Shown in pieces: positions 18,374 to 47,669 of a DNA stretch of 64,000 nt. Position numbers and translations under genes: made by a program. Source of the stretch: Paenalkalicoccus suaedae (GTDB lineage: Bacteria; Bacillota; Bacilli; Bacillales; Salisediminibacteriaceae). Within the stretch, counting starts at the first letter, position 1; every line of letters starts with the position of its first letter. Location: assembly GCF_006965545.2 (NCBI RefSeq), contig NZ_CP041372.2, forward strand, positions 2,790,001 through 2,854,000. Reading direction: 5' to 3'. The notes below the pieces were generated by a model that saw nothing but the letters and a program-made list of their open reading frames with translations, had not been told where the DNA came from and ran no database searches.

Positions 18374-18483
18374 CCTCTCATCTTTCAAAGCACACGCTTT
18401 GTTGGAATTGGCACCTTCCAAGCGAATGCTTGATGGTTGCCGGGTTTCATAGGGCCAGTCCCTCCACCTCTCTGGATAAGAAG
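18374..18483 (-). ncRNA. SAM-I (S-box) riboswitch of metNPQ
   Basis: The minus strand carries the S-box core in order: the P1 side CTTATCCAGAGAG, then GGTGGAGGGA, CTGGCCCTATGAAACCC, GGCAACC, a variable hairpin, GGTGCCAATTCC, the P4 hairpin AAAGCGTGTGCTTT, and GATGAGAGG closing P1. These are the conserved bases of the SAM-I class. It represses methionine import when S-adenosylmethionine is plentiful. Confidence 0.97.
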
Positions 18484-32451: not shown

Positions 32452-32688
32452 AAACTCCACCTCTACTCTTTCCCCAAAATAATGCCGTGCGGTCCGTTCC
32501 GCTTCTCATATAATACCATACATAGCGTACTAGATTGCACTATAATTTTGCGAAAATTGGAATATAACCTAAGATTTTTTAGCGCTTACTTTTTAGCCTG
32601 TCTTTAGTCTCTCTCATTGTCTACTTAAATAAACGACCATATGACACGTTTAGATCATTTTTTTGATAAGAAACTACCATCAAAAAAC

Positions 32689-32722
32689 AGACCAGCACTC
32701 GCCTAAGGCATGCTGGTCTAGC
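32689..32722 (-). terminator. Terminator of the FrnE-like gene
   Basis: Minus-strand AGACCAGCATGCC/GGCGAGTGCTGGTCT stem followed by GTTTTTTGA. It starts about 10 bp after the stop at 32732. Confidence 0.88.
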
Positions 32723-32731
32723 TTATCTATT

Positions 32732-33322
32732 CTACTTCGCTTCCTCAATCGCTTGTACGTAGGCTTCTTTTGACTGGAGCCCTGTTAATTTCTTTTCGCC
32801 AATAAAGAAGGTTGGAACGGCTGTCACGGCGTCTTCCATGCGCGCTCGCTTTAAATGAGCCTCGCGCTCTGCGCTAAACTCGCGGCTTGATACAGCAGCC
32901 TCAAACGCTTCGCCATCAAGGCCAACGTCTTCTGCTACCTGACGAAGCACGTTAATATCGCCTATATTTAAGCCATCTACATAAAATGCCGTGAAGACCT
33001 TATGCGCATAGTCGTTGCCACGACCATGCTGCTTACTAAATAAAAGACCTTCATGTGCAAGATATGTGTGTGGGTGTGGATCAGTCATATTTAAATGCAT
33101 CGTCACGCCTAGTTGCTGTGCCCAAGGTTCAATCGACTGCTTCCATGCACGTTGAATGTAATCTCCTTTTGGACTTAACGTTTCTGTTGGATAAGGTCGT
33201 AGCTCGAATGGAAGCCATTCAATCTCGAAATCCTTTCCTTCTAATGCTTCGAATAGCGGAGCCTCCGCTAAATAACAAAATGGTCAAACAAAGTCACTAT
33301 AAATACGTACTTTTACAGTCAT
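32732..33322 (-). CDS. Probable selenoprotein: FrnE/DsbA-like oxidoreductase with UPFC active site
   Basis: From the ATG at 33322 (GGAGGG 7 nt upstream, a possible -10 TATGAT at 33354-33359) the frame reads MTVKVRIYSDFV, then TGA at 33284-33286, then PFCYLAEAPLF and continues without interruption to the stop, 196 codons in all. FrnE-family DsbA proteins have SDFVCPFCY here, so the UGA replaces exactly the first cysteine of the CxxC redox pair, giving U13-P-F-C16. The rest is fully FrnE-like: EWLPFELRPYPTE, HEGLLFSKQHG, VPTFFIGEKKLTG with the cis-Pro. A SECIS-like hairpin follows the UGA. The alternative is a recent nonsense mutation. Without readthrough only a 124-residue fragment from 33106 is open. 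Confidence 0.85.
33254..33270 (-). promoter_or_regulatory. Bacterial SECIS-like hairpin after the UGA codon
   Basis: In the mRNA, TAGCGGAGGCTCCGCTA folds into a perfect 6-7-bp stem (TAGCGG/CCGCTA) with apical loop AGGCT. The loop begins about 20 nt after the UGA, within the 16-37 nt spacing usual for bacterial SECIS elements, and has G among its first loop bases as SelB binding requires. It lies inside the coding region, encoding LAEAPL. Confidence 0.8.
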
Positions 33323-33384
33323 ACGTGTTCCCTCCATTATTCAAGATATCTCTATCATAGCAGAATCCGTGTGCACCAAAAAAA

Positions 33385-33421
33385 GAAACGTCTCATGCAA
33401 CTACCTCGCATGAAACGTCTC
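33385..33421 (-). terminator. Terminator of the metY-hom operon
   Basis: Minus-strand GAGACGTTTCATGC/GCATGAGACGTTTC stem around GAGGTAGTT, followed by TTTTTTT. It starts 16 bp after the hom stop and separates the operon from the FrnE-like gene. Confidence 0.9.
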
Positions 33422-33436
33422 GGCTAATTTCATTTA

Positions 33437-34675
33437 TTAACTAACGACTCGTTCCTTCGATGTGCGAATACTACTTGCCTCTACAACATCACCTGTTACC
33501 GCAAACGTAACAACTTCAAGCCCGCTTAGCGCATCCGATGTACCTCGCACTATAACAGCCTCGCGACCATCATATCGCTCCACCGCTGACACAGCCTCCA
33601 CCGTATTTTCTAACGAAGAAGGTAGCTTGTTTGCCGTCACGAGGAAATACGAATCGGCGGTCTCAGCCACATTAGCAGTAGCTCGAGGTAGCTCCGAACT
33701 CTCAGGCTCCTGCTCACTCGTCCCCGTCCAATGGTTGATGACATCCTCGATGATCGCGCTTGCCGTCGGGAATTTACCAGCGCCAGGCCCTTGGAATAAT
33801 AGCTGACCGACAATACTTCCTTCGACATGAATACCGTTATTGACGCCTTCGACGCCATAAAGTGAATGGTCGCTTAAGACAAGCTTTGGCTCTACAGACG
33901 CGACCACACCCTCATGCGCCTCAATCGTGGCAACATGCTTGATGCGTGCGTCAAACCGTTCTGCCAGCACTAAGTCACGTACATCCACGCCTCGAATACC
34001 GCGCGGCTTATCCGCTGCCCATACAGGCGCCTGACCGTAAAGCCAATGGCTAATGATTGTCGACTTGTAGTACGCATCCCAGCCATCAATATCCTTGTCC
34101 GGCACAGCCTCTGCGTAGCCGTTCGCCTGAGCCTCCTCCAAGGCCAGATCAAAGGCAGCCCCCTCTTTCCTCATTTTAGAAAGGATGAAGTTAGACGTTC
34201 CGTTTACAATCGCCTCTATACGCGTTATATCGTTTGTTTTAAGCGTATGTCTTAGACTCGTTAATATTGGGATTCCTCCAGCTACAGCCGCTTCAAAATA
34301 CAGTCTGCAATGATAGATCTTTGCGAGCGCTAATAGCTCTTCGCCGTGCTTCGCCACTAGTTCTTTGTTGGCTGTTACAACGGTGATCCCGTTTTGAAGG
34401 AACTGTCTCACTAATGGATAAGCTGTCGTAGCATCTGTCGTCACTTCAACGACCGTATCCACGTTTGCTGCTAGCACATCGTTGACGTTGTTTGTTACGA
34501 GCGTTTCCTCTGAAACTGGTCGAATCTTATTCGTATTCTTTACAAGCACGACTGGAATTCGAAACGATCCGCCGATTAACTTTTCGATTTTGTCCCGCTT
34601 TGCATACAGCGCTTCATAGACGCCGGTCCCTACTGTTCCAAAGCCGGCAATTGCTACGCGTTTTTCTTTTGCCAC
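33437..34675 (-). CDS. hom: Homoserine dehydrogenase
   Basis: Reduces aspartate semialdehyde to homoserine, the branch point to methionine and threonine. The N-terminal RVAIAGFGTVGTGVYEAL binds NAD(P). VVTANKELVAKHG near residue 100, AAVAGGIPILTSLRHTL, IEAIVNGTSNFILSKM and the catalytic AVPDKDIDGWDAYYK (Asp/Lys, about 195-210) follow. The C-terminal 100 residues do not look like a standard ACT domain, so feedback control may differ from B. subtilis Hom (433 residues). Overlaps the end of acs by 22 bp; last gene of the S-box operon. Confidence 0.9.
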   Translation of the reverse strand: MAKEKRVAIAGFGTVGTGVYEALYAKRDKIEKLIGGSFRIPVVLVKNTNKIRPVSEETLVTNNVNDVLAANVDTVVEVTTDATTAYPLVRQFLQNGITVVTANKELVAKHGEELLALAKIYHCRLYFEAAVAGGIPILTSLRHTLKTNDITRIEAIVNGTSNFILSKMRKEGAAFDLALEEAQANGYAEAVPDKDIDGWDAYYKSTIISHWLYGQAPVWAADKPRGIRGVDVRDLVLAERFDARIKHVATIEAHEGVVASVEPKLVLSDHSLYGVEGVNNGIHVEGSIVGQLLFQGPGAGKFPTASAIIEDVINHWTGTSEQEPESSELPRATANVAETADSYFLVTANKLPSSLENTVEAVSAVERYDGREAVIVRGTSDALSGLEVVTFAVTGDVVEASSIRTSKERVVS

Positions 34676-41009: not shown

Positions 41010-41133
41010 TCCTCTCTCATCTTTCAGCGTTTTTATGAACGCTGATGGAATTGGCACCATACATCATACATATGAGTATGTGTTGGTTGCCGGGCTTCAT
41101 AGGGCCATTCCCTCCGCCACTCTTGATAAGAGA
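41010..41133 (-). ncRNA. SAM-I (S-box) riboswitch of the metY operon
   Basis: Minus strand: CTCTTATCAAGAG, GGCGGAGGGAATGGCCCTATGAAGCCCGG split over the core, GGCAACC, a longer variable hairpin (ACATACTCATATGTATGATGT), GGTGCCAATTCC, the P4 hairpin CAGCGTTCATAAAAACGCTG, and GATGAGAG. These are the SAM-I conserved positions in order. The operon is therefore repressed when SAM is abundant. Confidence 0.97.
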
Positions 41134-47286: not shown

Positions 47287-47309
47287 CCACCATATAAATT
47301 ATATGGTGG
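47287..47309 (-). terminator. Terminator of tmRNA
   Basis: Minus-strand CCACCATAT/ATATGGTGG stem followed by TTTTTT. It overlaps the last bases of the tmRNA, whose encoded CCA end lies in the stem. Confidence 0.85.
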
Positions 47310-47669
47310 AGACGGTGGGAATCGAACCCACGTCCAGAGATAACGCAACAGAAGCGTCTACGAGTGTAGTCAGTTAATTATCATTCGCCGATACTTCAGC
47401 CAACTAACAGGCTTCCGTATGACTAACCTGATTAATCTCTTCTACGTTTCCTCAGGTGGAGGATCCGTAGCGTATCCCACTATAAGTGAGTCCCTGATCC
47501 TTCACATGGGTGATGAAGGGAGGAACCGCTAACAGGGTTTTTACGCCGCTGCTAAAGCGAAATTGTTATCTTCTTTGCCAACTATAGGCGATGGGCGTTT
47601 TATACGAGGACACCCAGCTCGACTCGCAACTTAAGTCCGACCTATCCCTGTCGAATCCAGAACGTCCCC
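47304..47669 (-). ncRNA. ssrA: tmRNA (transfer-messenger RNA)
   Basis: The minus strand begins GGGGACG and ends CGTCTCCACCA, which pair as the tRNA-like acceptor stem with an encoded CCA. The T-arm GGGTTCGATTCCC and the 5' TTCGACAGGGATAGG D-region are intact. The tag reading frame GGCAAAGAAGATAACAATTT... encodes GKEDNNFALAAA and then TAA, so the degradation signal ends in ALAAA. It rescues stalled ribosomes with SmpB, whose gene lies 450 bp upstream. Length about 366 nt. Confidence 0.97.

Follow-up and report, generated by a model that had tools for sequence, protein, structure and literature searches.

The locus and its reading frame

In the window, a stretch of 64,000 nucleotides of the Paenalkalicoccus suaedae genome (contig NZ_CP041372.2, positions 2,790,001 to 2,854,000), the minus strand holds a frame that runs from 33322 to 32732 and is unbroken over 196 residues once TGA is read as selenocysteine (Sec, U). 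The features of this locus, in window coordinates, are as follows.

32732..33322, minus strand: gene of a FrnE/DsbA-type oxidoreductase, very probably Sec-containing, 196 residues; ATG at 33322-33320, stop TAG at 32734-32732; matches PF01323 and the FrnE structures 5cp1/5cnw
33284..33286, minus strand: UGA codon 13 (Sec), replacing the first Cys of CPFC; the same codon is TGA in 11 other family orthologues
33275..33277, minus strand: TGT codon 16, the second (resolving) Cys of UxxC; C16 is invariant in 54 aligned proteins
33254..33270, minus strand: predicted SECIS element of 7 bp, TAGCGGA (33270-33264), loop GGC (33263-33261), TCCGCTA (33260-33254)
33330..33335, minus strand: ribosome-binding site GGAGGG, 7 nt upstream of the ATG, from reading the sequence
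33385..33421, minus strand: terminator-like hairpin of 16 pairs with a T-run, between the upstream ORF and the Sec gene, from a hairpin scan
33437-34675: upstream ORF, homoserine dehydrogenase-like (named by eye)
32682..32719, minus strand: inverted repeat AGACCAGCA...TGCTGGTCT followed by a T-run, probable terminator of the Sec gene, from reading the sequence; its 13-nt loop exceeds the loop width of the hairpin scan

With the terminator-like hairpin upstream and the inverted repeat with its T-run downstream, the gene stands by itself. The predicted N-terminus of the protein (TGA as U) is MTVKVRIYSDFVUPFCYLAEAPLF. A sequence-only reading of the window had placed a UGA at the first Cys of a FrnE/DsbA CxxC motif, and this is what we find: the TGA at 33286-33284 is codon 13, the Cys at position 16 is kept, and in the alignment with FrnE homologues, which that reading had recommended, the UGA falls on their Cys. 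The homology it had described on both sides of the UGA is also present, as the match to Pfam PF01323 (DSBA) crosses the TGA and spans residues 5-192 (1.5e-30, 106.9 bits vs. a cut-off of 25.6, with C written for U). NCBIfam gave only a weak partial match (36.3 bits vs. a cut-off of 190). The program-made list of ORFs contains no more of the frame than a piece of 124 residues (32732-33106), the fragment that conventional calling had been predicted to yield. Given that no NCBIfam model scores above its cut-off, such Sec genes are probably called as truncated fragments in public annotation.

The same 124-residue piece is what would be expected if the TGA were a nonsense mutation or a sequencing error, leaving either a pseudogene or a gene of which no more than the C-terminal part is made. 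We consider this explanation very improbable, even though other genomes do contain decayed copies (L200 of G299 and, probably, L191 of G053, with a second TGA and a disturbed hairpin): the TGA recurs at this codon in all 11 further orthologues of the family and in 36 genomes of the order (two smaller Sec clades counted), the codons after the UGA appear to be under purifying selection in those pairs of relatives that can be tested, and the hairpin codons are fixed (see below). In L200 the frame is lost, while bases resembling a remnant of the hairpin are still visible.

Elsewhere on the minus strand of the 64-kb window, Rfam models detected two SAM riboswitches and a tmRNA (18375-18482, 41014-41132 and 47304-47669).

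Selenocysteine machinery of the host

The host genome (4.04 Mb) encodes selA (E 4.9e-152), selD (1.7e-122) and selB (6.4e-114), together with selC, a tRNA-Sec with the anticodon TCA that scores 59 bits, above the Rfam cut-off. These are the four genes that the host had been expected to carry if the gene encodes a selenoprotein, and the absence of which had been named as refuting that proposal. They lie in one cluster of about 5.6 kb, on alternating strands:

L002 8285-13847 (G000:C3, about 1923284-1928846): selA (minus), selD (plus), selB (minus), selC (plus)

The selD gene contains an in-frame TGA (TKKAGUGCKI), so that SelD would itself be a selenoprotein. The alpha subunit of formate dehydrogenase, another Sec client, was sought in the host genome and not found, and when the window and two 20-kb stretches were scanned by motif for UGA candidates, inspection by eye showed no credible selenoprotein besides selD. 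An ORF that adjoins the sel cluster (L002 14689-15084) consists of tandem repeats with a unit of about 30 residues, MFLNLNLCSPFQIYVPRYEVMDFVIATPRV-like.

The presence of this complete system, including the tRNA with the TCA anticodon, bears on the possibility that the TGA is decoded as an amino acid other than Sec, through a changed code or through Trp or Arg readthrough. TGA is indeed rare as a stop in the window, where it ends 1 of 36 ORFs of at least 250 residues; it nevertheless still terminates that one long ORF, it sits in the gene exactly at the Cys of the homologues, and the hairpin codons accompany TGA and not TGC or TGT. Decoding as another amino acid is, in our estimate, the least probable of the alternatives and hardly credible.

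Conservation of the UGA codon among relatives

We compared the window protein with genomes of the same family, order and class. At the family level, 29 of 35 genomes contain a match; the host genus has no further genome in the collection, and Alkalicoccus and Salipaludibacillus seem to belong to the family, since the loci of A. daliensis and S. aurantiacus have the same contig positions as those of G002 and G024. All 12 family orthologues (the window gene and L015-L026) have TGA at the motif codon, at 57-70% identity between the window protein and the 11 others, and a deeper Sec branch is represented by L027 and L028 (about 40% identity). A second FrnE-type paralogue has TGA in the motif at 8 loci (L029, L030, L031, L034, L035, L037, L038 and L040) and Cys at 5 (L032, L033, L036, L039 and L041). 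The remaining family matches are distant Cys proteins and a partial match in G015 (L043) that is limited to residues 84-191, where the TGA lies away from the motif and the motif codon is unreadable. The FrnE-type Sec clades beyond that of the window gene comprise L029-L031, L034, L035, L037, L038, L040 and L204 on the one hand, and L027, L028, L198 and L199 on the other. In the family, selA scored above the cut-off in 28 of the 35 genomes and in 20 of the 22 with a motif TGA; the two motif-TGA genomes without it are G006 (80% complete), where selB is above its cut-off, and G018 (76% complete), where it is not.

Among the 397 genomes sampled from the order, 102 match the window protein at E 1e-20 or better, and 36 carry the TGA form, with the motif codon checked in all 36; 33 of these belong to the main clade, defined by an alignment score of at least 440 to the window protein (a cut-off chosen here), and 3 (G166, G206 and G067) to two smaller Sec clades. 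In this set 60 further places were read, and none of the remaining listed places has TGA. The sequence-only reading had regarded Sec use as uncommon in Bacillaceae; in this order it is not, with selA (E 1e-80 or better) in 181 of the 397 genomes. The gene was found in 35 of the 36 genomes with the TGA form vs. 20 of the 66 that have other forms only (Fisher p = 7e-12, a test that ignores relatedness). The single TGA-form genome in which selA was not found, G405, is 99% complete, has no selB above cut-off and contains an intact UGA gene with the hairpin (L152); it may have lost the Sec system recently, or the assembly may have a gap where the sel cluster lies. Of 398 genomes sampled from the class, 61 match, and 12 of the 25 new loci that were read (L212-L236, with L225 and L234 as repeats) are further distinct Sec genes; the other listed places include several with TGA. 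The counts of selA cover the genomes of the family and the order.

Sec and Cys copies of the main clade occur together in 4 genomes (G136, G239, G282 and G342). Separately, a Cys and a Sec gene of the FrnE type lie adjacent, in tandem, in G206 (L150/L199). As judged from these sequences, the position of the TGA together with its conservation among relatives is far beyond what would be expected by chance.

The hairpin downstream of the UGA

The loops of bacterial SECIS elements lie 16-37 nt from the UGA. In the window gene this distance is 20 nt, and the small apical loop contains a G, a feature of bacterial SECIS elements according to PMC1088965. The hairpin is the one that had been described beforehand with an AGGCT loop; its position holds and its stem has 7 bp, but the A-T closing pair had been counted as part of the loop. 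It had also been argued that a SECIS-like fold after a TGA at exactly the redox cysteine speaks against chance. The position of the TGA does so, whereas the hairpin on its own does not: under our own, loose criterion (G-U pairs allowed, loop of 3-14, start 16-37 nt after the UGA, a G as loop base 1 or 2), a stem of 7 bp was reached in 7171 of 20000 synonymous redraws of the gene (36%), and the folding energy was matched or beaten in 645 of 2000. Single-gene redraws thus do not set the hairpin apart, and we did not use the hairpin of one gene as support.

These redraws are also what favours the view that the hairpin arises only because the residues L-A-E-A-P-L are conserved, and plays no role in decoding. 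Comparison across genes argues otherwise. The codons GCG-GAG-xxx-CCG are present in all 49 distinct Sec genes of the main clade, in none of its 61 Cys rows and likewise in none of the 37 Cys rows with identical residues A-E-x-P (counted over distinct 45-base stretches, with L191, which is probably decayed, included), so that Sec genes have a fixed stem core and a fixed first G of the loop. This loop G comes from the third position of GAG, and 33 of the 37 A-E-x-P Cys rows have GAA instead. L176 encodes the same LAEAPL but lacks a hairpin of this kind, and its genome has no selA. L130, a Cys gene of G146 (genus g53) that groups in the tree with the Sec forms L125, L128 and L129, has kept the stem GCGGA...TCCGC but has lost the loop G, as it reads GAA; this resembles a SECIS element left over after a reversion from Sec to Cys. 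Within genus g53 there are genes with Sec, genes with Cys and this Cys gene with its remaining stem without the loop G. Taken together, these comparisons make a hairpin without a decoding role highly improbable.

In the main clade no pair of the stem shows compensatory changes, as the stem is nearly invariant; in the second Sec clade 2 pairs do, a number equalled by 100 of 500 shuffles. The second paralogue has its hairpin elsewhere, with the loop 29 nt after the UGA, and the deeper branch has a candidate hairpin at a third position. These differing positions suggest, without proving it, that Sec arose separately in each of the three clades.

A pseudogene, a changed code and a chance hairpin were accordingly rejected on the basis of the conserved TGA, the Sec machinery and the specificity of the hairpin codons to Sec genes. 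The original proposal of a probable selenoprotein is supported by the presence of the machinery in the genome and by orthologues that keep both TGA and hairpin.

Selection and exchange of Sec and Cys

For 16 pairs of genes we calculated dN/dS after the UGA. In 13 pairs the ratio was finite and ranged from 0.046 to 0.267; the other 3, which include both pairs with the window gene, had saturated dS. The 13 testable pairs of relatives, judged by their sequences, indicate that codons 3' of the UGA are subject to purifying selection.

A quick tree of 155 rows, with many weak branches, requires at least 10 changes between Sec and Cys, 4 of which are forced by starred branches; parsimony in the main clade, again with many weak branches, gives 6 Sec gains and 2 losses. 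The tree omits L042-L044 and L200-L202, which are distant, partial or decayed; L045-L048, which duplicate G-genomes; 26 of the 34 loci L068-L101, which are redundant and for the most part of the Burkholderia type; rows shorter than 150 residues; and identical proteins.

A C-terminal tail with at least two Cys is present in 43 of 50 main-clade Cys rows vs. 14 of 37 Sec rows (Fisher p = 4e-6), a contrast that was noticed post hoc. With rows from order genomes only and without L191, the counts are 40 of 43 for Cys and 13 of 36 for Sec; for a strict CxxxxC tail the contrast is weaker (30 of 50 Cys rows vs. 13 of 37 Sec rows, Fisher p = 0.03). By parsimony on the one quick tree, the pair was lost 7 times and regained once along Sec branches (exposed length 4.3) and lost twice along Cys branches (exposed length 12.7), with a binomial p of 0.0015 for the losses. 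Independent-pair tests on the tree, which correct for relatedness, lacked power: for Sec and Cys forms as such the starred branches supplied no more than 2 to 3 pairs, and the test of the C-terminal pair had no power either. These comparisons are suggestive of Sec forms often being without the C-terminal Cys pair that most Cys homologues in Bacilli retain.

Predicted structure and function

An AlphaFold2 model based on 54 aligned relatives (pLDDT 97.7, pTM 0.93) places U13, folded as Cys, directly before the helix formed by residues 14-18. Residues invariant in the 54 aligned proteins are D10, C13 (Cys or Sec), P14, C16, L41, L126, P170 and G181. The nearest solved structures are those of Deinococcus radiodurans FrnE, by sequence (E 2.7e-17 for 5cp1/5cnw) and by fold (TMq 0.82-0.84), and the probable assignment to the FrnE subfamily of DsbA (cd03024) rests on these structures, the CP(W/F)C-type motif and the DsbA-like domain. 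The window protein starts with the first strand, and no signal peptide is visible by eye; it is therefore predicted to be cytosolic.

We conclude with high confidence that the gene product is a disulfide oxidoreductase of the FrnE type within the DsbA superfamily, probably cytosolic, in which the catalytic first Cys is selenocysteine (UPFC). Insertion of Sec in this strain is what we infer from the evidence above. In the mechanism we propose, SelB, sitting on the hairpin 20 nt further down, would bring tRNA-Sec to decode UGA codon 13, and the Sec-tRNA would be supplied by SelA and SelD. Sec13, presumably near the conserved Pro170 loop as is general in enzymes with the DsbA fold, would attack a disulfide; the resulting mixed selenenyl-sulfide would then be resolved by Cys16. 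By analogy with the studied proteins of the FrnE/DsbA family, from which the function is carried over, the enzyme may act in the reductase or isomerase direction and may have a role in thiol-oxidative stress.

FrnE of D. radiodurans (DR_0659; 5cp1, 5cnw and 5co3), the best solved relative, shares the CP(W/F)C active site with the window protein but has Cys in place of Sec, is longer, and has a C-terminal CxxxxC, whereas the tail of the window protein contains no Cys and hence no such motif. PMC8945050 describes FrnE proteins as thiol oxidoreductases with a predicted cytoplasmic location and proposes that drFrnE acts as a disulfide reductase in the cytoplasm, its C-terminal CxxxxC regenerating the active site; the same source finds this motif in many but not all FrnE members and regards it as no strict requirement. 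Lmo1059 of Listeria monocytogenes, a member of the DsbA family, is a Cys enzyme with a CPFC motif where the window protein has UPFC; its first Cys is described as essential for GSSG reduction and diamide tolerance (PMC10715225). Closer relatives are the FrnE-type Cys homologues of Bacilli, such as L049 (Anoxybacillus vitaminiphilus) and L051 (Paenibacillus selenitireducens), which are 48-51% identical over nearly the full length and read SDFVCPFCY; they differ in having a Cys codon, no SECIS codon set and, usually, a C-terminal Cys pair.

Relation to known selenoproteins

COG2761 is, as we take it, the FrnE group. Selenoproteins of the DsbA-like UXXC type were placed under this COG, with 9 sequences, in a survey of the Sargasso Sea in 2005 (PMC1088965, main text). 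The main text of a 2016 survey counts 45 DsbA-like selenoproteins in 41 organisms (PMC5029168), and that of a 2026 review lists a DsbA-like form 1 with PF01323 and UxxC (PMC13188914). The window protein shares with the type, as it is described there, the DSBA domain, Sec as the first residue of the CxxC motif and a SECIS element directly downstream, a likeness of domain, motif and SECIS position. A survey of 2006 reported 3 selenoproteins of 3 families in Bacillales, which are not named in the passages covered here (PMC1794560); one of these could be of the DsbA-like UxxC type. A genome paper on Aneurinibacillus (Bacillales) reports genes for selenophosphate synthase and selenocysteine synthase, and its text does not mention DsbA (PMC7996765). 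In the passages covered by our literature search we did not find FrnE-type Sec proteins described in Bacilli. The window gene, to judge from these passages, belongs to a widespread branch of the already known DsbA-like UxxC selenoproteins, whose range in Bacilli they do not describe.

The hosts in the sampled order are presumably mostly aerobic. The share of their genomes with selA is relevant to the statement, in the 2026 review, that selenoproteins are rarely retained by aerobic bacteria (PMC13188914). We tentatively suggest, as an idea that may well prove wrong, that in Bacilli Sec in the FrnE active site removes the need for a C-terminal regenerating dithiol, and that where formate dehydrogenase is missing, as in the host here, a main client sustaining the Sec system of aerobic spore-formers would be Sec-FrnE, together with SelD. 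The clade allows the exchange of Sec and Cys to be tested among close relatives.
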